Shown here: positions 6,778-61,072 of the stretch, in pieces
Numbering within the stretch: the first letter of the stretch is position 1
Layout of the letters: each line of letters begins with the position of its first letter
Assembly (NCBI GenBank): GCA_012064415.1
Contig: SSNU01000071.1
Span: forward strand, 278,070-342,069
Length of the DNA: 64,000 nt
Direction of reading: 5' to 3'
From: Gyrodactylus bullatarudis
Taxonomy: Eukaryota; Platyhelminthes; Monogenea; Gyrodactylidea; Gyrodactylidae
The notes under the pieces: generated by a model
Database searches by the model: none
What the model saw: the letters and a program-made list of their open reading frames with translations, nothing else
What the model was told of the DNA's origin: nothing
Translations under genes and position numbers: made by a program

Positions 6778-7033
6778 TAAAGCTCCTTCTCACTCATTTT
6801 CTTAGCTCTCTTATCAAGTCCTAGTTCTATCATATATACAAGTAAAAATACCGAATTATTACTGTTTTTTCTTTTTGGTTTCTGGTAACTCTGATTAGTT
6901 TGTTTCTCAACCGTCATGATCCTGTAAGATAACTTGATAACCAAAGTGAAGTGTATTCATTCTCAACATTTAAAACCATTAGGAAGTCTTTGCTCCATCT
7001 TGGCTATATTAGACCAGGTTGATATTTTAGAAA

Positions 7034-7930
7034 ATTGAAAGAAGATATGTTAAAACCAAATGTACATTTCTCAAAGCATCATCAGTGTGGTAATACTTTA
7101 ATAATTGATAAAGGTAACAAGTTCATTCAAGATAATTGATAATTCGTTATTCCATTCCTTTGAGAATGCAAAGTTAAAGCTGAAGGAAAATGGTTATCCC
7201 AGTAAATTTGTTGACAAATTCATTAATGTATCTTATGGAGGTTGTCGAAACAGATGGATTGGTGAAAACAACTATTTTTATGAAGCTCACATTCACAGGG
7301 GATGGATTCAGTAATGACAGGAAGAATCAATCAACATTATAATAACATCCAATTGAAAATTGTATTTAAAACTCAGATTATTTAGTTTGATTCACAAAGA
7401 TTTGCTAAAACCACAGGAGGAGACTATAAGTTTATAAATTCCAATCTGATTTTGGGGCCTCATAGATAGGTAATTATCTATAGGAAATTATCTACTAGAG
7501 CGGAAGATCATCACAAGAAGGATACTGCGGCTACTAGACAATGTAGTGGAAATTTTAAACAAGAAAAACATTTCGCTTCAGTTTTAAATTTTCCGTTTTA
7601 TACAAAAATCCTAGTAACGACAGCATAGATGTGTGGGTGAAAGAAAAATTTCCTATTAACTTTCATAAACCTGATCTATGTTTTCAAAAAAACTATTCCT
7701 ATAATCTTCAACTACCCTGGCCGATGTTAGCTTTTTCCCTTTTCTCTCCACTATTGCTATTTATTGGAGAGTTTTGGTGCTTTTCAGCTTACATTGTATT
7801 CTTATTTTCTTTGACTTTTACTATTTCTTTAATAATTTGTAAATTATTATCTTTACTCATATCATTTTTAAAGTATTACCTCTGATGATACTTTGAGAAA
7901 TGTACATTTGGTTTTAATATATCTTTCAAT
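7034..7930 (+). mobile_element. Penelope-like element fragment with inverted termini
   Basis: The fragment is bracketed by an inverted repeat of about 49 bp (7034-7085 and 7882-7930) containing AATGTACATTTCTCAAAG. Between the arms lie shifted frames closely similar to the GIY-YIG part of the copy at 50.9-51.8 kb: a segment with NGYPSKFVDKFIN near 7190-7230, and one near 7630-7740 ending in SYNLQLPWPM-like residues. Penelope-like retroelements often carry inverted or partial terminal repeats. The frame is broken by several shifts and stops, so this is a dead copy. Confidence 0.75.
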
Positions 7931-25100: not shown

Positions 25101-28100
25101 TGCTTTTGACAGGAATCTTTAAAGAAAAATAAAACATATACATCTGAAATCAACACAATAAGATGAATAAAATGATATAAATTCTATCAATGTACGAATT
25201 TTTAATCCTTTGTAAGCTCTTGTAAAACTCTACTGCATTTCAAAAATCCATCTGTATTCGCTAAAATATAAAATTAAAATGTGTCTTTCTCTTTTTTTAG
25301 AGCTATGAAATATTCAATGGTGGCCAAGATGTTCACATCAACTTGTTTAAAGAGTCGAATTTGTACTTTTCCTCAGGTCCTCTGTCTTATGACTACAAAA
25401 TATTCGGTATGATCCTCAAGTTTGGCTCCGATTCTAGTAGGGGATCTAATCATCGCCTTAACAATCATTCCTTTCCTGGAGAGGTAAGTAAAGTTGATTC
25501 AAAACCAACTTATCTTTGTTTCCAAGGGATAGAACCGGCTAGTCAAGAATTTGTGTATATTTTTTTCTTGAATATCTTGAACATATATCAAAGTTTAGGA
25601 TTTAAACCTTGAAAAAGTTAGATCAGAATGATCTAGGCAATAGATCCCACAGGTTCATCTTATTTCCCGGGTTTTGGCATACTGGCGAGTCCAAAAGAAT
25701 TCGAAACGCGCGTATATATCTACCAAAGCTTTTTTTTCTAAATTCTCTGAGAGACTCTTTCGTACTATAGTCACGGTAAGATCCATTTGTAAGCTGTAGC
25801 ATTCAGCGACATGTCCTAATCCATGACCAAATATGACGAATCTGTGGGATATATTACCTAAGCACCTAAGCAATGAAATAATCGTAGATAATCTTTGTAA
25901 GCATAGACGCTGCCCTATTATATCCATACTGGATCTAACGATAAGAAATTTGATGAGAGAATTAATGATATACTCTTATACTGTGATCTAGTGATTAGTT
26001 TTATAAACTATTTCCTACTCCAAAACTTATCTTTACTTCTCAAGTGTCTTTGAATTCTTTACTACTCATCCATCTTGATTTGTTGAGAGTATTTGTCAAA
26101 ATATACTTTGTATCTTCATAATCAGCGTATGTAATTAACAATGGCTATGATAACCAAAAGATCAAATATGAGCTATAAAAAATTTTCCTGGGATTAAAAG
26201 GAATAAATGATACAGAAATTTTAGCAAAAAATTATTTTCTTTGCTTGATAACCTAAAAAGGATTGATAACTATCCAGTATGCATTGATTTTATTAATTGG
26301 CAAGTCTTCTTATACCAAATCTTAAATTTTTATTATTTGTTTATATTTTATCCAAAAATCTCTAGGTTTTATCTGTGTTAAACCCTCAAGACACATCAGA
26401 AATTCCTTCAAGTGTTTCCCATCAATGGATAAACACAGCTACATTGAATTTTTTTATCATCTGACCAAATCGGAATCATACTTTACAAGTTCTCTGGAAT
26501 ATAAAGCTAATTGATATGAAGTTGGGAATCTATGATTTTTACGAATACCTCGATTTATTCATCAAAAATTCGAATATATTGAAAAATTTTTGGACTTGTA
26601 CTTATTTTGCCCACGTTTACGATTTGAAGAAGAAATATCGATTTGGCGCCAAAATCCCATTTTTTGAAATTTTAATTTCTATTGATTTCAAAGTGTGAGA
26701 GGGATCAAAAGTTGATTTTCAGGATCACAATAAGACAAGTAAGCCGAATATGCTGAATTCGTTCTAATGCATAACTTTATTATCGTTTGGGAGTCGAATT
26801 TCGATTTTTTGATCATTTTCACTACTTGAAAATCAATGAAATTTCGATTAACCGAAATCCCTCAAAATGGTGAATCTTTCGAAAATTTATCAGCAATATT
26901 CGGCTTTCTTGTCTAATTCTGATCTTTTGATCACACTCCCACTTTCATATCAATAAAAATTCTGAGTTCAATATTCGAAAAAATGGGACTTTGGCCCCAA
27001 ATCGATATTTGAAAAATGACTATATTTTTCATGAAAATAATTTTTTTTAGAATTTTCTTCTTCAAATCGTAAAAGTGTACAACATGAGTAGGAATCAAAA
27101 AAATCTTTTACTTAATCGAATACTTGCTGAAAAAATCAAGGTTTTCGTAAGAATCCCATCTTCATATCAAACAATTTTACATATTTTTAAAATACTCAAT
27201 ATGTCTTCAATTGAAGCTAATTTAACCTTTTTACAAAAAATTAAAATATTTCAAGATAGTCATAAATTAAATTAGTTTTTTTAATCCATAACAAAATGAG
27301 CTCATAAGAAAATATCCAACAATGTTCAATTAGAAAAAAATCAGGCTATTTTTCGAAGTTCAAAAATGTCCTAATTTGGACTCATATGAAGTAGGTTTAG
27401 TTTTTTCGATACTCGGATTTTATCGTGAAGCTTATCGCGATAAATTGATTTCACTTGTTCTCATCAGACCATTGCACTGGCAGAACTGTTGCTGTTAGAG
27501 AGGACTAGGTAATGTTAATATGGGTGGATGGAAACTTGCCTGAAATCTCTTAGCCATCTTTAACTCTTTCATTGCCAAGAATATTTTCTTATTTTCAGAA
27601 AATATTAAATCTAGCAATATTCAACTATTTGGCCAATGCAAGGTTTCATTTTTGGCTTCCTTTTTAACTTTAGTTCTTTCAGAAATCTGCCGAACTGTAA
27701 TAAAGTTACAAAGATTTGAGAAAATTGAGAAATGGACATCGGCATCGAAAGGGTTAATATGCGTTCAATTGGGTCAGTTATTAAATTGTTTGAATTCTAG
27801 AATTTTCTAATTTTATCCATATATCAAATCAAACTTTCAGCTATTGGTAATTAAACTTCAATCATGATTAGTTCTTGCTAATTTGAAGAGGATTTCAAAG
27901 CCAGTTCAGTTCACTAAGGAAAAAGAGTGTGAAAAAATTCTTCCAGAATGTAGCCCAGAAACTGAATAAGAATGTCAATCAAAAATTTTAGTAATTGTTC
28001 CTTTCTGCTTCAAATTGTGATTCTTATCTCTTAGTAATCGGCAAGTTATTCTCTCTTTCAACTTTGTTTTTTTTCTCCTTTAAAAATGTAACTTCATGTC

Positions 28101-42084: not shown

Positions 42085-43765
42085 CTACACCTAGTTAATA
42101 TGAAAATGGAAATTCTTATTTTTTTCATCAAGGAATCGAATTCGATCAAGATTTTTTGGAATCTAGATCATGAGGGCCTCTTCCACGATTGGGAGAAAAA
42201 AATTTGGAAAAATTCAATTACAGCAAATTTGAAATCTTGAAGTAGCGCCAAATTCCCATTTTTTGGACTTTGAGTTGAAAATTTTTGTTGATTTAATAAT
42301 AATAATAATTTATTAACAATTCATGTGTTAAGTTAATTTTTTACAGTATTATTCTTCATTATAAATCTTATTTTTAAGTTCTTTTTTAAATTCATTTAAT
42401 CTCATATTTTTAATTGTTTTGTTTAATTTTTTGAAAATATTTTTACATTTATTAAAAATGGCAAGTTTTTTTAGCTGTCCGAATTCAGGAGTATTTGATC
42501 TCAGTCGGTTTGTGTTATATAATATTGGCGATGATTTGATCAGACATATGCTTTTGAGTTCTCGTCTTAATCTCAAGTTATCTCTCGAAAAACCCAATTC
42601 GTCTTGGAAAAAAGGAGAAGGCCTTCTCCTGAATTTCTTGAATGCTGTATTAATCTTTTTAGACCAATTTTCTCCTTCTGGATTCCATACGGCTGAGCAA
42701 TATTCTATTGTCGGTCAAGCATATATTGTATATAGAAGGACCTTCATTGAATCGGTTTTAACACATTTGTGAATATGGATTAATCTGCCAATGAACTTTT
42801 TTATGATGTCCTTGTAATGCTGTGTGAATTCAAACTTCCAATTATATACCACACCTAGGTCTTTTATAAGCTCTTTTGGAAGGATCTTTGTTTGCCCAAT
42901 AAAAATGTTTAGATCAAAGATGTTTGATTCACATGGGGTTATGTAAAATGACTTTTCTATGTTTGGAGAAAAGCCTAGATGTTTGAGCTTTGCAGATATG
43001 AGTTCAAGTTCATTATTTATTGTAGCAACATTGTAGTATTCATTGAAGTCGAAAACTATTTTGAAGTCATCTGCATACTTGAAGATTTTGAAATTTTCAG
43101 TTTGGATTTCAGCAAATAGAATATTGAATAGTAGAGGACCAACTCTTGATCCTTGTGGAACACCCGAAGTTAGAGATTTTAGTTCTGATTTCATACCATT
43201 GCATTCTACAAATTGTTGTCTACTCGTCAGGTAATTTTCAAGATACTTTAAAGATACTTCATAGTGAAAAAGTGATCAATAGTTGATTTTTAGGATCACG
43301 ATTAATCAAAGTGATCAAATATGCTGAATCTGGTTTTGAGAGTCACCCCATAATCGTGTCAAATTTAAATTTTGATCATTTTCCCTACTTGAAAGTCGAT
43401 GAAATTTGATATTTCAAGATCCCAGAAAAATGACGAATTTATCAAAATTTTTTATGATGATAATCGGTTTTTTGTCTTATTGTGATCCTAAAATCAACTT
43501 TTGATCACTCTCTCACATTGAAATCAACAAAAATTTTCAACTCAAAGTCCAAAAAATGGGAATTTGCCGTTACTTTAAGATTTCAAATTTGCCGTGTTTT
43601 CCTTAAAAATTGATTTTTTCCAAATTTTTTTTCTCCGTTTCATGAAAGAGGGTCTCATGATCTAGATTTCAAAAAATCTTAATCAAATTCGATTTTTTGG
43701 CGAAAAACATGAGAATTTTGTAAAAATCATAAACTCCCATCTTCATATTAACTGGCTTTAGTTTT
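42085..43765. mobile_element. Foldback element (family 1) split by a LINE
   Basis: The left half (42085-42295) and right half (about 43258-43765) together match other family 1 copies, with mirrored ends around TTAATATGAA and TTCATATTAA. A LINE fragment interrupts it after GTTGATTT. The foldback is therefore older than the LINE insertion. Confidence 0.7.
42296..43258 (-). mobile_element. 5'-truncated non-LTR retrotransposon (LINE)
   Basis: Minus-strand reverse transcriptase remnant. It contains GVPQGSRVGPLLFNILF (RT block with the PQG motif), then KYADDFKIVFD with the YADD catalytic box. The 3' end is marked by TTATTATTATTATT on the minus strand, typical of LINE tails. The frame is broken between about 42600 and 42715. 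The 5' half is absent, as usual after incomplete target-primed reverse transcription. Confidence 0.8.
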
Positions 43766-49800: not shown

Positions 49801-52800
49801 AATTCGAATTCCTGTTGGAAAAATCGAGATTTCTGTAAAAATCATAGATTCATCATCACACAACTTTAGATAGGACCATCCCTAGTAAAATTTATTTTCT
49901 CGGAGATAAAGAATGCTAGCTGAATTATAATTTGTCAGGTTACTATTAAATGTTTGCTCGATAAAATGGTATAATTGATTTTGAACAGGAAAGTAAAAGG
50001 TATCGAATTTTTATGAAACATATTGCGGAATAGATTTTTGTTTTAGACAACATTAAGGAAATACTAAATTTGTCCTTCCATTATATAAAGAGTAAAATTC
50101 GTAAATTTGAAATGAAATCTTTTGTTATCGTATAAAGAGATTTACCTACGCATTTTCTCATATCTTACCGGCCATTCTTGATTTCAGCAAAAAATACAGA
50201 GTTTACAAGAAATACAGAGGGTATACTCTTGAAAATTCTTAACCAGCTAAACTAGAATATCTCTTGTTTTTTTGGCGAGATTGAAAAATGAAAAATTCCA
50301 TTTTAAAACTAAAAACCGATCTCTCAAACTTTGAAAAATTTTATAGTTTCCACCCTATGGCGACATAAATTCATAAAACTTGATCTAATGGGAGAAATCT
50401 TCCCTTAGCATAGGATTATGTTGTTTTTTTTAAAATTCAGACTTGGTTTTTAAGTCTCAGAACATCTGAGGATCAATAAATAGTTTTAAAATTATTGGTC
50501 GCACTTATTTTTGAGCAGAAATTAACTTTTTAATCGATAACTTTTCTAGGAAGAGTGAATGAGAACTTTAATGGCACTATTCCTATTTATAATTGGCTAA
50601 TTATTTGTATATTTAATACAGTAACCAATTTAATAGTTTTTTTTCTAACAGAAAAAATGGAAAAGTAGAAAAAAGGATATATTAACACCAAATGTACATT
50701 TCTCAAAGGTTCATCAGTAGTGTCTCTTTGATAATGATAAAAGTTAAAAGATGAATGAAAATAATAATTTACAAATTATGAAAGAAATAGTAAAAGTTGA
50801 CGAAAAATAGAATAAATGTAAGCTGAAAAAACACCAAAACTCTCCAATAAATAGCAACAGTGGAGAGAAAAGTGAAAAAGCTTACATAGGCCAAGGTAGT
50901 TGAAGGTTATAGGAATAATTCTTTTGAACACATAAGTCTGGTTTATATAAATTTATGAAGAATTTCTCCTTCACCCAAACGTCTGTACTGTCATCACTCG
51001 GGTTTTTGTATAAAATTGAAAAATTCGAAATTGAAGCCTCATGCCCTTCCTGTCTAAGATGCCTAGTTATCGCTGTATCTTTCTTAAGGTGATCGTTCCC
51101 TCTAGTTGACAACTTTCTGATTGTACGTCCTATATAAGAAGATCCGCAGTCACATTGAAATTTATAAATCAATAGAGTCTTCTCTTCAGGTCTCAGTAAA
51201 TCTTTGTGAATCAAATTGAACAATCTCTGAGTTTTAAATACAATTTTCAATTGTATGTTGTTATAATGTTGATCGATGAGATTTGTCAACTTTCTCCTTA
51301 AATCATTACTAAAACCATCTCCTTTGAAATTAAGTTTCATGAAAATTGTGGTCTTCTCAACTTCATCTGTGTTTTCAACGACATCTCTATCGACTGGTAA
51401 GTTGATAAATTTGTCCACAAATTTATTGGGATACCCATTTTCCATTAAACACAACTTCAAATTCTCTATTTCCTTTGGAATTTCTTCTGGACTCGCTATC
51501 CTTCTTATCCTCTTACTCAATCCAATTACTAGACCAACTTTATGTGAAATAGGACTAAAACTAGCAAAATGCAGATATTTGCCATTGTCCGTCTTTTTCT
51601 TGAAGATGTTTCTTTGAATTGAGCCGTCATCTCTTCTAGTTAGTTTAACGTCTAAGAAACTCAGAATATCATTAGATTCTTTTTCCATAGTAAATTTAAT
51701 ATTATATTTAATATTTATATTTTTATATTTATATTTATATTTAATAGAATGAAACGAATTCATCTTTAAGAAAAAGTCATCTGATGATACATTCGGTTTC
51801 ATCAAAATAAAATTCGTGACTTTTTAAAATCGAATAAGATAAACTCAAAGAATCCTAGAATTAAAATACACGCGTCGAAGCTAAAAATTTGAAATATTTT
51901 GCATTCTTTTAGCTTTGAGCTTGCAAATTTTAAATTTCAATATTACTCCCAATAGACAATGTCTAGTAGACATGGGAATCAAAGATTTCGAATTTCTCAT
52001 TTTTAAAGAAATTGAAAATTCAACGTTTAGTCAATGATGATGATATCCCTTGTTGTATTGTTCTCCAAAGTTCTCTAAAAATTCCTATTTTCTCATTAAA
52101 CTATACTTTTGGTTAGTCTTTTTGACATCGGTTCTTTTCATTTGTAGACACTGTCAGAGATGAAGATATTTTCACCAAACGAGAAATCATACCGGATCCC
52201 ATAGTCCAAAATCTTGTTGATGATGTATCCAAGTCAATTATGGAGAAATTAAGCAAGGTTATTGGCAAAGTTGAAACTGAATTAGACGGCCGCTTCAACA
52301 TGATTCGAACTCAGGAGACGAATCTGGGTAATTTTCTCTGTGATGTCGCCATGACAACTGTAGATGCTGATTGCTGTCTAATCAATTCTGGGTCAATACG
52401 CATTGACAAGCTCATTCCACCTGGACCGATAACATTAAAGACGCTCAATTTAATTTTACCCGGCATAGACCAAGTTGTGGTCATAGAACTGAGTGGATTA
52501 GAAATCCTTGAGGTTCTGGAAAATTCGGTCTCCAAGGCAAGTCCAAACTTAAGCTAGACTTGAAATGAAGATGAGGATTAACTATTCTTTTTACAAAAAA
52601 ATCTCAATATTTTTCTACCGGAGCGTAAGGAATAGAGATGTAACGAATTTTGACCTTTTAAACGTAGTATAAATTCATTGAAAATCTAGCGGCATTTTTA
52701 AAAAGGGGTATTTGCAAAACTAGTATGTTCTAGGGTTGTTTATTCAGAATTAGTATGTTTTTTAATTGAAAAATCAAATCTAGTATGTCTTTTTACGTAA

Positions 52801-55428
52801 GTGCATATAAAAGTAATTTCAGATTCAGTATGTCCATGAGTTTTGTTTTTAAATTTAGTATGTTTTCGCTCAAAATTAGTATGTATTATTAGATTTTATT
52901 TATAAATAACCTGTTTTGTTTTCAAACTTAGTATATACTATATACATTTTTGGTCTTGGATCAGAGCAAAGACATTGATTCAATCCTTTCAAATCTAAAT
53001 TCAATGCATCCAAATATAGAATTCACTTGAAAAATTCTTATCTTTAAACTTGAATATTATCACAGACAAGCATTTTGATACTTGATCTTGAATAAAATAA
53101 TGTCAAGAACTCAGAGTGTACTATCATTCGACAAGGTTGAAAAATTTGTTACATCTCTAGTAAGGAAGAAATATATATTTCTTGAATTTCATGATAAAAT
53201 GAAATGTTGTAAGAAAGAATTTCGGAAAAAAACCAATCTGGTCGAAATTCAAGACCGTTTTTCGAAGATCTGCCAAGTTTCCACTTTTTCAACTCAAATT
53301 TTTGAAATAGATTTCGAAGTTTTAAAGCAACTTGATACACTTTTGGTTCAACATTAGACGAAGAATTAAAACCTTAGGCCTGAGATTGAGGAAAAGTCGC
53401 GATTTTCAACAAAAAGTTAAACTTTTTAAATTTCCTTCGTGATAATCGACAAATTCAGATTTTTCCATTTCCCACAATAACGACAAATTTCTATGAACTT
53501 TTTTAGATGAATTCGAATTCTTTATCTAATGATGACCCGAAATGTCAAAAATTAGTTGCTTAAATCATCGGAATCCATAAAAATTCTAAACTCAAACTAA
53601 AATATAGGCCTAATTTTGACCAGATGGAATTGTTAAAAAAATTTGTTTTTGACTTTCCGGAGAAAAAGATTAACTAGAATAATTTCGTTCTAGGTGCTTG
53701 GGTAATATACCCCACAGGAACGTCTTATTTGGTAATGAATTAGCCTATGTCGCTGAATGTTACAGCTTACTAGTACGAAAGAAATAATCAAAGTATACAT
53801 ATTTGGTAAACATATACTCGCGTTTCGTCCTCTTTTGGACTCATCACTATGCCACAACCTAGCATTGTAGTCCAATGCTCAATCCACTCGTCCAATTTAA
53901 ATTATTTCTACATGCTGTAGCGTACCCCTAGTGTTTTCAAACTAATGAATAGTGCAGCACCAATACTTGTAGACGAATGCTCAATCCACTCGTCAATGCG
54001 ATATTTCTTAGGTTCAAATCTCAGGTTGTGGCATACTGATGAGTCCGAAAGAGGACGAAACGCGAGTATATGTTTACCAAATATGTATACTTTGATTATT
54101 TCTTTCGTACTAGTCTTGGTGGGATCAATTAGTAAGCTGTAACATTCAGCGACATAGGCTAATCCATTTCCAAATAAGACGTTCCTGTGGGGTATATTAC
54201 CCAAGGACCTAGAACGAAATTATTCTAGTTAGTTGAGTTTTTCGTAGATATCTAAAGACTAAAGCAGTCTTATTGGTCTTAGATCCAAAAGATTCTCTTA
54301 TCAATTGAATATGCCAGATTCAAATAGTATTTTTTTGGATCTAAAGCCAAGAATTCCAAGATTGATCTTTAAAAAGATGCAAAATTAAAACTAGTTTTAT
54401 CCATCTTGTATACCAGATATCCCTATCTTCTTTCGTTACACACTCTAGACAAGAATTTTGATACCCCATCTTGATGGAAAAATTATACAAAAATTTCTAT
54501 GAATTTTAAAATAGTTTGACCATAACTCTATATAGTCAGGATAACGGATTACCTTTTCATAAAAATGTATAAGTATATTAAGTAACGAGAGTAATGCAAG
54601 AGATTTTTTTCTCAAGTCAGAATCTATTGAATCATGATAAATTTGTATACCGTTATTATTTTGTTCTTGATAAAAAAGAACTCAATTTAAAATCGTAACT
54701 TTAAAATCCAAACCAACAATTTTAAAAATTCAAATTCAAATTTTTGAGTTGCCGAATCAAAGTAAAAAACAATTTCTACAAAATGCAAACTTTTTCTAAT
54801 CAAATGATTTTTAGATTTTAAGTAAATTAAAATTCTTTTATAGATACCAGCTTTGGAGGGAAGATTTGCTCAAGTCAGTAATATCGTATTTAAATATAGA
54901 AAAAATTCTCCGCCTGGAAGTCGAGTTATAAAAGAAAGTGTCCTTATAGATGAGAAACCTCTTATTTTAACTAGAAAGTACAACGTTGCCATGAATGAGT
55001 TCCTATCCTCAGGGAAAGATGGCTATGATGTTTTGGTTGGTAAACGAATCATTCTAGATTCTGAAGAGAGTCTTCCTCTCATCACAGCGGTTACAAACTA
55101 TTTCAAGACCGTATCAGTAATTAATGGTCTCACGAAGAAACGAACAAATCATTTTCAACATTTGACACAAGTAGTTCATCGTCAGAGTACGAATAAAAAT
55201 ATTGCCGTAGCTCTTTCAGGGCTGTTGGGACAATTTTCAATGCCTATTCAAGTCAAAGAAAACATTCAAATGATTGAAGAAGTTATTAGGGAACCGGAAA
55301 TCGAAAAACACCCTGAAGAGAACGAAAATTTGTGGGGCAAATTGAAGACAATGGTGGAAAAAAAAGATAGAGAAAGATGTCGTGTGGCTCCCAAAATTGA
55401 AGGGCGTATTATTCCCGTTGATGACTAG
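46900..55428 (+). CDS. 5'-nucleotidase-family metallophosphoesterase, intracellular form
   Basis: Member of the 5'-nucleotidase/UshA family, which hydrolyses nucleotide or sugar-nucleotide phosphoesters with two metal ions. Exons are 46900-47337, 47705-48050, 52148-52536 and 54844-55428, giving 585 residues. Metal-site motifs are HFNDVYN (12-18), SGDALSPS, GNHDFDFG (89-96), ALTHMRWPND and GGHDHD (214-219). The C-terminal substrate domain has NSGSIR and a GRFAQVSNIVF strand. No signal peptide follows the ATG, unlike the secreted CD73 type, so a cytosolic enzyme is likely; annotated invertebrate relatives carry many names and the substrate is unknown. Intron 3 uses a GC donor (AAG then GCAAGT). 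Introns 2 and 3 contain the Penelope-like, family 2 and ribozyme-SINE copies. Confidence 0.9.
49078..49517. mobile_element. Family 2 MITE, second full copy (inverted)
   Basis: It runs from CTAGTAGGGTGATG to TTTTATCCTAGCCTATT. Its interior is the reverse complement of 31916-32311 with moderate divergence. It lies in phosphoesterase intron 2. Confidence 0.7.
49640..49872. repeat. Half copy of foldback family 1
   Basis: It matches the right arm of the 15.8-16.5 kb element, including AAAGTGAGCAACATGAGTGG and a terminal AATCATAGATTC. The other arm is absent. Confidence 0.5.
50665..51810 (-). mobile_element. Penelope-like retroelement, 5' truncated
   Basis: It holds an open GIY-YIG-containing frame and, at its 3' side, the same AATGTACATTTCTCAAAG block as the 7.0-7.9 kb copy. 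The 5' reverse transcriptase part is mostly missing. Confidence 0.75.
50882..51805 (-). CDS. Penelope-like element polyprotein fragment, GIY-YIG endonuclease
   Basis: An open frame of about 307 codons with no stop. It covers the end of the reverse transcriptase/linker and the C-terminal GIY-YIG nuclease. The motif CDCGSSYIGRTIRKLSTRGNDH supplies the YIG and the following arginine; HEASISNF fits the downstream conserved block. The C-terminus is SYNLQLPWPM. A simple repeat near the N-terminal end encodes alternating Tyr/Lys. There is no clear host start codon, so this is a truncated but still open element gene. Confidence 0.75.
   Translation of the reverse strand: MMKPNVSSDDFFLKMNSFHSIKYKYKYKNINIKYNIKFTMEKESNDILSFLDVKLTRRDDGSIQRNIFKKKTDNGKYLHFASFSPISHKVGLVIGLSKRIRRIASPEEIPKEIENLKLCLMENGYPNKFVDKFINLPVDRDVVENTDEVEKTTIFMKLNFKGDGFSNDLRRKLTNLIDQHYNNIQLKIVFKTQRLFNLIHKDLLRPEEKTLLIYKFQCDCGSSYIGRTIRKLSTRGNDHLKKDTAITRHLRQEGHEASISNFSILYKNPSDDSTDVWVKEKFFINLYKPDLCVQKNYSYNLQLPWPM
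52721..52936 (+). repeat. Spaced TAGTATGT motif array
   Basis: TAGTATGT or a one-base variant begins at 52721, 52751, 52781, 52826, 52856, 52877 and 52929. The first five intervals include three of exactly 30 bp and one of 45 bp, with little conservation between motifs. It lies in phosphoesterase intron 3. Confidence 0.6.
53809..53853 (-). ncRNA. Hammerhead ribozyme motif, probably inactive
   Basis: Minus-strand core with stem I GGCAUA/UAUGUU, stem II GUCC/GGAC, GAAA, and a GCGA-capped stem III before GUA. The conserved CUGAUGA has become GUGAUGA; losing the C3-G8 pair normally abolishes cleavage. Confidence 0.65.
54030..54074 (+). ncRNA. Hammerhead ribozyme, type I, complete core
   Basis: Stem I pairs GGCAUA (54030-54035) with UAUGUU (54069-54074), including two G-U pairs. 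CUGAUGA (54036-54042) is followed by stem II GUCC/GGAC with a GAAAGA loop, then GAAA (54057-54060). Stem III is only two pairs, A-U and C-G, capped by the GNRA tetraloop GCGA. The cleavage triplet is GUA, predicted after 54068. Every invariant core nucleotide is present. Such short-stem-III type I hammerheads are known from animal retroelements. Activity is inferred and may be stronger in a dimer. Confidence 0.8.
54844..55428 (+). other. Last exon of the phosphoesterase gene
   Basis: Listed separately because it lies 2.3 kb from exon 3 across the GC-AG intron. It begins IPALEGRFAQVSNI after TTTTATAG and ends at TAG. It completes the 5'-nucleotidase C-terminal domain. Confidence 0.85.
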
Positions 55429-58184: not shown

Positions 58185-58563
58185 CTAAAAATAATTGGAT
58201 TATGAAAGCCCTTTATGTACTATTTTAAGTAGGTCAATAATAGGATTCTCAGCCATGCTCATCCAAACGTTTCGACATTGATTGTTTTCACACGTCTTCT
58301 TCAGTGGTACGACAAGTTTGTCAAAAAGAAAATACTATTTATATACTTTCATGATCTCTTACCTATCAGTTTTGTCCGAACAGATTAGAGAATAGAATTA
58401 TACAAGAGGCTGACCTATGATAATAAAGTATTGATAATCAGAAATGAATAGAAAATTAACCTGGTCACTGGTAATTACTATATCCATATGAACTCTAACT
58501 TTATGGAGATTGTCTTCTCACACCTAGATGTTAGAAATTCGGATAAGAAAGTGTCAATTCCAT
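58185..58563. repeat. Repeat relics including a family A SINE tail
   Basis: Positions 58210-58310, read in reverse, resemble 61235-61320: both contain GTCGAAA, GTTTGGAT and an ATGGCT segment. Such sequence recalls Penelope-like element termini. Positions 58460-58563 in reverse are the SINE family A tail, with an uninterrupted GTAATTAC, serving as an empty-site equivalent of the hAT insertion at 2575. Confidence 0.55.
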
Positions 58564-58772
58564 AATAATAAAAATATTTACCCCCAACTCCCTATTATTT
58601 CTCTGGCCCTAATGGCTAATCAGAATGAAAAAATTTTATTTTAGATTGAAAAAATTTTAAATCAGAATTTTTAACTTGCAACTAGCTCTGAAAAAGGTAT
58701 AGATGTAAGAAATTCGGATAAGCAAGTGTCAATTCCATGAGAGAGTCAAATAATATTCAACTCACGTTGGCA

Positions 58773-58815
58773 GATGCAGACGCGTTTCGTCCTTGTTACG
58801 ACTCGTCAGTACACC
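58773..58815 (-). ncRNA. Hammerhead ribozyme motif, left arm
   Basis: A mirror copy of 59025-59067 on the opposite strand, with the same core CUGACGA, short stem II and GAAAC followed by GCGUC. Confidence 0.65.
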
Positions 58816-58953
58816 ATAGCCAGGATTCGAACCCAGGTCTTCAACGTTGTGAGGCAACGCTTCTAACCACTGGGACAGAACCCCCTGTTATTTACAAAAA
58901 ACCAGTGTGTAGGTGGTGTCAAGACTATGGGAGTGTTGAGTAGTATGAGACGG

Positions 58954-59030
58954 AGGGGGTTCTGTCCCAGTGGTTAGAAGCGTTGCCTCACAACGTTGAA
59001 GACCTGGGTTCGAATCCTGGCTATGGTGTA
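58954..59030 (+). promoter_or_regulatory. tRNA-like Pol III promoter region of the family A SINE
   Basis: CCCAGTGGTTAGAAGCG resembles a tRNA A box, and GGTTCGAATCC at 59008-59018 is a canonical B box, 30-35 bases apart as in tRNA genes. The tRNA fold itself is not complete, so this is a derived promoter head. It is mirrored in the left arm (about 58810-58886). Confidence 0.75.
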
Positions 59031-59067
59031 CTGACGAGTCGTAACAAGGACGAAACGCGTCTGCATC
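59025..59067 (+). ncRNA. Hammerhead ribozyme, type I, minimal stem III
   Basis: Stem I pairs GGUGUA (59025-59030) with UGCAUC (59062-59067), with two wobble pairs. CUGACGA (59031-59037) fits CUGANGA. Stem II is GUC/GAC. GAAA is followed by CGCGUC, giving a GUC cleavage triplet at 59059-59061. ACGCGU is self-complementary, so a stable stem III would form between two molecules, as in dimeric hammerheads known from other animal repeats. Activity is inferred. Confidence 0.75.
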
Positions 59068-59140
59068 TGCCAACGTGAGTTGAATATTATTTGACTCTCT
59101 CATGGAATTGACACTTGCTTATCCGAATTTCTTACATCTA

Positions 59141-61072
59141 TACCTTTTTCAGAGCTAGTTGCAAGTTAAAAATTCTGATTTAAAATTTTTTCAATCTAAA
59201 ATAAAATTTTTTCATTCTGATTAGCCATTAGGGCCAGAGAAATAATAGGGAGTTGGGGGTAAATATTTTTATTATTTTCAATCTGAGTTGACATTTTTGC
59301 ATTCTGAATTCATCATTTTTCAATCTAAACTGAAAAATTTTCAATCTCATTAGCAAAGAGCCCCGAGAAGTAATTAGAGGGGTGGGGTGATTATTTAACA
59401 TTTTTCATTCTTATTTCAAATTTTTTCATTCTTAATTGATAATATTTCAATCTGAGTTTAAAAAAATGAAAATTAATTTGAAATTTTTTTATTAGCAGTC
59501 TGAATTTTTTATTCTTTCCTCATTTTTTACGAAAAAAACCTATTTTGTTCGACCAATGGAATGATTAGATTATAAATACGTCATGATAATCATTCATTTT
59601 AAAAATGCCACGCTATCGTAAACACGATAATAAGGTTAGAGCCAAGGTTTTGGAATTAGTTGAGGAAGGTAAACCTTGGAAAGAATTTGCTGCAAATTCT
59701 GATGTCCCGTATCATACAGCCTATAATTGGATCAAATCTGGAAAGATCCAGCCAAAATCTCGTGGTGGTACAAATTCGACTAAGAAGACACCTGAAATCA
59801 TGCATGCTATTATTCAAAAAATTGAGTCTAATCCATCAATGACTCTTAAAGACTGCAAAGAATTTGTTCATGCACGTTATAATTTGGACATTTGTCAATC
59901 CACTGTACTAAATTGGCTTGATGGAGAGTTTTATTCCCTAAAAGATGTTCGTAATATTCCGGTTGGAATGAATACATTGGAGAATAAAATTAGAAGAAAG
60001 GATTATGTTAAAAATTTGATGGAAGATCGGTCTGAAGGTCGTCATATAATTTGGCTGGACGAAACAAATTTTAATCTTTTCTGCAAAAGAACACAAGGAC
60101 GATCAAAGATTGGAGCTAGAGCTAATATAATCAATCCCAATTCAAAAGGTCTCAATTTACATTGCATAGGATCTATATCTATATCTATGAACCAACTGGT
60201 TCACTTCAAAATTAAAAGAGGTAGCTTTAAAAAACCTGATTTTCTCCTCTACATTAATGAATTGATTAACATTTCTCGGGATTCAGGCTTGTCTCCAATG
60301 ACGATTGTAATAGATAATGCTCCTGTTCATTCAAGGATAGAAGAAGAAGTAATAGAGGATGATGTTAAAATTTTAAGATTAGCCCCATATTCATTCTTAT
60401 TGAACCCGATTGAACTGATATGGAGCATTTACAAGTGTGAAATAAAGAGAATACTTGCCTTAGAAAGACCAACCATTCTTGAATACATCAGAGAAAATGG
60501 GAATTTATCAATAGCAGAGTTTAGAACACAAACATTAGAACGAATTGCTGAAACAGCGAGAGAATTCATAACTTCTGAAAAGATATCCTGTTCTGTTTTT
60601 CATGTGGAAAGATACTATATTAAAGTTCTAAATGATCAGGACTTAGATGAGAATATTATCCAATAAAATGTTTTTTTTTATTTCAAAAGATTATAAATAA
60701 GTTAATAGACTAAAGAAAAGAAAAGGCTTTTTCAAATTAATTTTCATTTTTTTAAACTCAGATTGAAATATTATCAATTAAGAATGAAAAAATTTGAAAT
60801 AAGAATGAAAAATGTTAAATAATCACCCCACCCCTCTAATTACTTCTCGGGGCTCTTTGCTAATGAGATTGAAAATTTTTCAGTTTAGATTGAAAAATGA
60901 TGAATTCAGAATGCAAAAATGTCAACTCAGATTGAAAATAATAAAAATATTTACCCCCAACTCCCTATTATTTCTCTGGCCCTAATGGCTAATCAGAATG
61001 AAAAAATTTTATTTTAGATTGAAAAAATTTTAAATCAGAATTTTTAACTTGCAACTAGCTCTGAAAAAGGTA
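59141..61072 (+). mobile_element. Tc1/mariner-superfamily transposon, apparently intact
   Basis: A 1.93-kb element with terminal inverted repeats of about 340 bp (from TACCTTTTTCAGAGC inward) that look identical on both sides. TA dinucleotides flank it at 59139-59140 and 61073-61074. The interrupted sequence is the SINE tail: removing the element and one TA restores a CATCTAGATGTGAGAAGAC-like join, matching the uninterrupted tail at 58.51 kb. The intact transposase gene and identical repeats indicate a recent insertion. Confidence 0.9.
59605..60666 (+). CDS. IS630/Tc1/mariner-type DDE transposase
   Basis: An uninterrupted 353-codon frame from AAAAATGCC to TAA between the long inverted repeats. 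The N-terminal half holds a helix-turn-helix (KPWKEFAANSDVPYHTAYNW) for terminal-repeat binding, then a second HTH-like stretch. Catalytic motifs are IIWLDETNF (first D), VIDNAPVH (second D) and LNPIELIWS (E). I count 32 residues between the second D and the E, shorter than the 34 of classic Tc1. The transposase cuts and pastes its own element at TA. All three acidic residues are present, so the protein could be active. Confidence 0.9.
   Translation: MPRYRKHDNKVRAKVLELVEEGKPWKEFAANSDVPYHTAYNWIKSGKIQPKSRGGTNSTKKTPEIMHAIIQKIESNPSMTLKDCKEFVHARYNLDICQSTVLNWLDGEFYSLKDVRNIPVGMNTLENKIRRKDYVKNLMEDRSEGRHIIWLDETNFNLFCKRTQGRSKIGARANIINPNSKGLNLHCIGSISISMNQLVHFKIKRGSFKKPDFLLYINELINISRDSGLSPMTIVIDNAPVHSRIEEEVIEDDVKILRLAPYSFLLNPIELIWSIYKCEIKRILALERPTILEYIRENGNLSIAEFRTQTLERIAETAREFITSEKISCSVFHVERYYIKVLNDQDLDENIIQ

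Follow-up and report, generated by a model that had tools for sequence, protein, structure and literature searches.

What kind of repeat carries a hammerhead ribozyme near 54 kb of this stretch of the Gyrodactylus bullatarudis genome, and what moves it? We analysed the 64,000 nucleotides presented here (contig SSNU01000071.1; hereafter the window) together with the genome from which they come (77.3 Mb searched, in 471 contigs), and found that the ribozyme lies in one of two families of short repeats, here called U1 and U2. The U1 insert is probably a non-autonomous hammerhead retroelement of the animal retrozyme or Sm-alpha kind, mobilised in trans by the resident Penelope-like elements (PLEs). 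What points to PLEs is the shape of the inserts: many are inverted composites in which an antisense arm precedes a sense arm, often enclosed by one target-site duplication (TSD) and mostly ending at two different 3' positions. The mitochondrial COX1 of the assembly, translated with the flatworm code, has 89% identity with a Gyrodactylus albolacustris protein and 83-84% with the three matches that follow (Macrogyrodactylus, Cichlidarus and Paragyrodactylus), as fits Gyrodactylus or a close relative.

Two repeat families with a type I hammerhead

The units of U1 (about 372 nt) and U2 (about 366 nt) resemble each other over 69 nt at 80% identity, a part that spans the B box and the hammerhead. 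In the U1 copy of the window (WIN1, Table 1), positions 54030-54074 form a type I hammerhead whose core is intact and whose predicted cut falls after 54068, as the first-pass annotation had proposed. Direct reading gives CUGAUGA, GAAA, a 4-bp stem II, a GUA site and a 2-bp stem III capped by GCGA, a tetraloop of the GNRA type. The Rfam model RF00163 (Hammerhead_1) aligns end to end with 27.8 bits, below its curated cut-off of 34 bits (E = 2.1e-4 with a 1.1 kb stretch searched, 0.012 with the whole window searched), and no match in the whole window reached the curated Rfam threshold. The six-pair stem I described earlier holds if two G-U pairs are counted; otherwise it consists of the four Watson-Crick-type pairs of CATA/TATG. 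The mirror copy is also present, but its core carries a C3-to-G change and is predicted to be inactive. For the isolated window sequence, the hammerhead fold (-3.6 kcal/mol) is not the minimum-energy fold (-8.5 kcal/mol), which neither proves nor excludes activity.

The hammerhead motif is repeated beyond chance in the genome, because a pattern common to U1 and U2 gave 308 matches (more than the number of copies, as a single site may match with several ends) and the reversed pattern gave none. RF00163 itself has at least 57 genome matches, 29 of them above the cut-off and the best at 45.2 bits, a lower bound since 73 of 11180 first-look candidates were scored; the motif is thus not confined to the few copies in the window. 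All 12 of these matches for which loci are given belong to U1, four of the 10 loci scanned contain a match at the curated threshold, and no match was detected in 14 control genomes. Among 69 distinct hammerhead copies (one shortened U2 copy being entered under U1), pairing is kept in 64-69 copies at the four positions of stem II and in 60-67 at the four inner positions of stem I. Two pairs of stem I differ on both sides between U1 and U2, a covariation that is effectively a single evolutionary contrast at the family level. By reading, stem III has two pairs and a tetraloop in U1 and a single pair with a CGCG palindrome in U2. The accessible text of PMC7229834 reports the two-pair form with tetraloop in other invertebrates and a single-pair CGCG form that works as a dimer in amphibians.

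U2 has a perfect B box and U1 a near-perfect one. The pattern GGTTCRANYCY has three matches in the window, every one within these elements (0.67 expected), in agreement with the earlier placement of the hammerhead downstream of a B box; an A-box-like stretch is recognised in the units by reading only. A complete tRNA-like head was not borne out: ARAGORN found no tRNA in the window and no Rfam tRNA was detected at E<=1 across five loci. Nor is the tail unique, since body and tail are family-wide sequence. The decayed copy at 25.7 kb and the second family at 58.8-59.1 kb, the latter a palindrome with two hammerhead matches, were both recovered (Table 1).

Direct partial repeats at a spacing of 360-380 nt were identified in 13 of 60 loci, which show the more-than-one-unit habit of retrozymes, a class recognised by a hammerhead-bearing unit of some 150-450 nt that is present more than once, as it is here. 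The first-pass annotation was right that the hammerhead is real, repeated and present in two families, but was incomplete as to the partial tandems; the pairing that it mentioned in passing proves to be the informative part, as described below.

Many inserts are head-to-head composites within one duplication

We compared 70 inserts, drawn from all 39 listed U1 places outside the window and 21 of the 36 listed U2 stretches, together with the three copies in the window and six others taken from the Rfam list. The U2 stretches were the top of the list and two lower ones with two same-strand matches each; pairing played no part in the choice of these U1 places and U2 stretches. Inverted composites (antisense arm, then sense arm) account for 42 of the 70 inserts, 29/47 in U1 and 13/23 in U2, which bears out the frequent inverted pairing noticed earlier. 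Among the first 63 sources, same-family segments of opposite strand lying within 60 nt of each other are head-to-head in 38 of 38 cases and tail-to-tail in none. The same orientation is seen in all opposite-strand neighbours among the matches listed (4/4 in U1 and 12/12 in U2, the window's own included). Three of four added loci outside this count (L113-L116) are also head-to-head composites, L113 having been picked with knowledge of the pair there. In WIN1 the inverted repeats are 53671-53772/54130-54231 (97%) and 53769-53860/54023-54114 (98%).

An exact flanking direct repeat of at least 9 bp bounds 17 of 36 composites (47%) and 9 of 27 non-composites (L053 being placed among the latter, as its second insert had replaced the label), compared with 17 of 617 shuffled left-right pairings (2.8%). 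With one mismatch allowed, flanking repeats are found in 19 of 63 inserts and in 3.5% of 311 shuffled pairings. Eighteen of the 19 measure 9-16 bp, and they are 81% AT against a background of 69%. Because one direct repeat bounds the whole composite far above the shuffled control, many composites are single insertion events and so entered as one piece. This is the head-to-head inverted copy within one TSD that is expected of Penelope-type machinery.

Nested insertion, which predicts tail-to-tail pairs and inner TSDs, is contradicted as the source of the inverted pairs by their orientation and by the single TSD around half of the composites. Assembly chimeras are unlikely given the diverged arms, the TSDs and the many loci.

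The U2 palindrome of the window (about 58560-59275, by reading) extends about 135 nt past the element into unrelated sequence on both sides. In this it differs from the TSD-bounded composites, and it perhaps reflects a read-through transcript or a duplication at the DNA level.

Two classes of 3' ends

Outer ends were called long or short by landmark motifs, as mapping by gapped alignment had overrun into AT-rich flanks. Readable U1 ends mostly lie near unit position 256 (..TTTCTAG) or at 292-298 (..GCACTATTCATTA), with decayed copies ending elsewhere. Those of U2 mostly lie at 253-280 or 286-307 (exceptions at 180, 226-244 and 331), two peaks less clean than in U1. Since single inserts have 11 long and 12 short ends (five unreadable), about half of the composites would be expected to pair a long with a short end by chance. 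We observed this pairing in 22 of 29 readable composites (one-sided P=0.004), a count in which L080, unequal by eye, is scored short/short and L070 is scored long/short with a doubtful long end. U1 alone (P=0.002) has 16 long/short, three short/short (WIN1 among them) and no long/long composites among 19 readable ones. Two end classes with a tail on one arm only, also expected of Penelope-type machinery, are therefore found in U1 and weakly in U2 taken alone. The z-scores for a common hairpin at the start sites are -1.0 (U1), +0.5 (U2) and -1.0 (PLE), and none is claimed.

In L044, a U2 insert flanked by an 11-nt repeat, the sense arm reaches unit position 331, past the usual long end, which may represent a third start site or readthrough.

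Penelope-like elements in the same genome

Two PLE features lie in the window, one of them about 2 kb from the U1 insert (Table 1). A longer copy of this PLE matches RVT_1 (6.5e-10) and has weak matches to telomerase reverse transcriptases (E 0.04), group II intron reverse transcriptases being nearer (0.001); its relatives include a Trichobilharzia reverse transcriptase protein (40% identity). Pfam makes no GIY-YIG call in the PLE, which contains a CxC..YIGRT motif that we take to be that of the PLE endonuclease. PLE sequences appear very abundant for a genome of 77 Mb: a single 341-nt query from the 3' region gave 2290 first-look candidates (40 scored), and the protein gave 4503 (129 scored, all listed as matches).

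We inspected 19 distinct PLE places, 18 of which have a usable 3' end. Some stop at ..TTTTCCA and others run about 60-65 nt further; the additional stretch begins with ATGAATTTATGTGG.., a reading frame that on inspection is the start of the PLE open reading frame (ORF). All five composites with two readable ends (L093, L095, L096, L103 and the window element at 7.0-7.9 kb) pair one long with one short end, and a TSD of 8-9 bp is seen by eye in three (L093, L095 and L103). The PLE 3' regions (50690-50717(-), 7053-7085(-) and 7882-7914(+)) also share a conserved CTGATGA..GAAATGTACATTT with a possible stem I ACAC/GTGT and no visible stem II, perhaps a degenerate minimal PLE hammerhead.

Published PLEs have an adjacent inverted pseudo-long terminal repeat (pLTR), a 31-bp tail that is optional on one inverted pLTR, TSDs of 8-10 bp (absent in some inserts) and mostly head-to-head arrangement, according to the part of PMC3846280 available to us. 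For an Anolis PLE in vitro, the accessible text of PMC11167929 describes cutting and extension of both strands, a preference for AT-rich sites and two adjacent internal starts that match the genomic tail.

A comparison with long interspersed nuclear elements (LINEs) was made with a LINE-like element of the window, using its ORF and the stretch after it as queries. In this control, fair though imperfect, there were no opposite-strand neighbours in 41 listed matches and one, of 34 bp, in 46 listed matches. The element contains an RVT_1 fragment (9.5e-8) at 42715-43194(-) and has about 40 listed copies in the genome. The window also encodes, at 59605-60666(+), an intact-looking 353-aa ORF with DDE_3 (3.9e-15) and helix-turn-helix domains, a DNA-transposon transposase.

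Table 1 Features of the U1, U2 and Penelope-like elements in the window
Feature	Position	Strand or arms	Basis and remarks
Type I hammerhead (U1), intact core	54030..54074	+	RF00163, 27.8 bits, and direct reading; predicted cut after 54068 (GUA)
Mirror hammerhead (U1), core C3->G	53812..53850	-	RF00163, 24.6 bits, and reading; predicted inactive
B-box-like sequence GGTTCAAATCT (U1)	54011..54021	+	Match to B-box pattern
U1 head-to-head composite insert (WIN1)	53665..54229	antisense arm ~53665-53994, sense arm ~54006-54229	Mapping to U1 unit
Decayed U1 copy (WIN3)	25634..25901	both; short antisense piece, then sense arm	Unit mapping and sequence; core CTGGCGA
U2 pieces (WIN2)	58462..59140	both; 58462-58565(-), 58700-58885(-), 58888-59140(+)	Unit mapping and sequence
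U2 hammerhead, antisense arm	58773..58815	-	21.4 bits, E 1.6
U2 hammerhead, sense arm	59025..59067	+	21.4 bits, E 1.6
B box GGTTCGAATCC, U2 antisense arm	58823..58833	-	B-box pattern match
B box GGTTCGAATCC, U2 sense arm	59007..59017	+	B-box pattern match
PLE fragment, C-terminal part of ORF; candidate helper family	50882..51805	-	At least 129 genome matches
PLE head-to-head composite; one short and one long 3' end	7031..7926	both; 7031-7136(-), 7613-7926(+)	

How the inserts may arise

We infer transcription by RNA polymerase III (Pol III), self-cleavage and circularisation from the motifs and from work on other animals. The element would be transcribed from its Pol III head into an RNA that is longer than one unit or circular, either a multimer or one cut by the hammerhead and ligated. 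This RNA would be loaded on the PLE protein, whose endonuclease would make a staggered cut of both strands at an AT-rich target. Each 3' end of the target could then prime internal reverse transcription at either of two neighbouring starts, after which the two complementary DNAs (cDNAs) would meet head-to-head and be joined. More generally, we lean slightly towards the view that retrozymes are the short interspersed nuclear elements (SINEs) of PLEs, in which case a PLE ribonucleoprotein, perhaps a dimer, would cut both strands and begin reverse transcription on each of them, at two neighbouring sites, and inserts would commonly arise as head-to-head pairs with one long and one short end.

Several observations weigh against mobilisation by PLEs in this manner. 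The U2 composites taken alone (10 readable) give no significant excess (six long/short, two long/long and two short/short), and 13 composites with an unreadable end are excluded from the long/short count. WIN1 itself is short at each outer end, and no flanking duplication reaching 9 bp was found there. The comparison with PLE ends rests on five composites, and the matches listed include, besides four head-to-head PLE neighbours, a single tail-to-tail one (C332), perhaps a nested insertion. The U1 and U2 units have no sequence similarity to the fetched PLE loci (best E 0.12), and no 3' tail common to the units and the PLE or LINE was found. Because units and fetched PLE loci share no sequence, recognition is unexplained; it would be structural, or the matching PLE family lies outside the loci compared.

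With the same elements and helper, the inverted arm might instead be made by self-priming, a cDNA folding back and priming its own copy, a mechanism that the accessible part of PMC3846280 already proposes, with an antisense template, for the palindromes of Penelope. In favour of self-priming, the arms of a pair are alike: identity within pairs has a median of 97.0% (24 pairs), compared with medians between loci of 89.0% (U1) and 92.7% (U2). Identity over the stretch compared reaches 100% in four pairs (L031, L036, L037 and L046), which marks some inserts as recent. A fold-back copy would however be expected to reach the outer end of its template, which the unequal ends of most composites argue against. 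Moreover, in only 7 of the 24 pairs are the two arms more alike than either is to any other locus in the sample, a figure that partly reflects decay and does not prove two templates. We therefore consider self-priming unlikely.

Two loci hint that two RNAs may contribute to one insert. The arms of L071 differ at 8 of 122 positions, and its antisense arm differs from L028 at 3 of 139; the other is L044. L039, with arms 93.6% alike, was rejected as such evidence, as 10 of its 15 differences are gap positions. At the centre joints (n=29), the arms overlap by 1-8 nt in 14, abut in three and are separated by a gap in 12, an overlap figure without a chance control that is only compatible with microhomology at the joint.

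The hammerhead might also be a fossil or play no role in mobility, the elements moving without self-cleavage. Of 99 inner ends listed, not one falls 2 nt or less from a predicted cut site (inner coordinates 9, 19 and 211 of U1 look like breaks against the reference unit and not real ends), so the usual templates are uncut or re-ligated RNA and not self-cut linear monomers. Hammerhead mutants of the Anolis PLE insert normally in vitro (accessible text of PMC11167929), and the energy of the hammerhead fold given above also fits a ribozyme without a role. A ligated circle would, however, likewise give scattered inner ends, and the stems are kept in most of the 69 copies, with two stem I pairs changing on both sides between the families. 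On this balance we find a dispensable hammerhead distinctly improbable.

SINEs usually depend on LINEs, and TSDs of 9-16 bp and units without sequence in common with PLE loci would suit a LINE or other non-PLE machinery too, but the inverted pairs would then have to be nested insertions or rearrangements, against their orientation and single TSDs, no poly(A) or simple repeat stands at the 3' ends listed for the sampled inserts and the imperfect LINE control shows next to no opposite-strand pairing, which makes this explanation very unlikely.

Relation to known elements

U1 and U2 resemble the metazoan non-LTR retrozymes, with which they share, as far as the available text of PMC7229834 goes, a type I hammerhead, a unit length within 170-400 nt, copies in partial tandem, low GC, lack of coding sequence and PLEs in the same genome. 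They differ from the retrozymes of that text in the evident B-box head and in inserts that are mostly head-to-head composites with unequal ends. The Sm-alpha and Sj-alpha repeats of schistosomes (PMC2770079 and PMC8490949, accessible parts) are also similar, with a flatworm host, a type I hammerhead and many copies, besides a tRNA-type head of which U1 and U2 show the B box; the U1 hammerhead core is near the Rfam consensus. U1 and U2, in contrast, are two other families, in a monogenean, and give no tRNA call, whereas Sm-alpha is described there as resembling tRNA-Gln. With PLEs the two families have in common the head-to-head inverted terminal copy, the optional tail on one arm, partial tandems, a short AT-rich TSD and an association with hammerheads. 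Unlike PLEs they are non-coding: a unit of roughly 370 nt leaves no room for a telomerase-like reverse transcriptase with a GIY-YIG endonuclease. With no similarity to the fetched PLE loci, they would be passengers and not members.

That tRNA-headed hammerhead retroelements exist in schistosomes is already known, as is the proposal, from shared features and co-occurrence, that PLEs mobilise retrozymes. The available portion of a review, PMC7761336, states that metazoan retrozymes have no conserved motif betraying an autonomous helper and, on the grounds of shared hammerheads and co-occurrence, takes PLEs to be likely candidates; PMC7229834 and PMC8969392, in their accessible parts, also put PLEs forward. 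In the literature searched, from which most subscription papers and all bioRxiv preprints were absent, we found no Gyrodactylus hammerhead family and no evidence of this kind from insert structure for retrozymes.

Insert structure is a separate line of evidence on the helper of retrozymes, and its predictions are exact: each family should have two start sites, and both strands should be primed. The structure has a bearing on PLE insertion too, and what mobilises animal retrozymes can now be put to a direct test. If true, our reading would identify the helper that these retrozymes use and would explain the inverted terminal copies of Penelope without self-priming.

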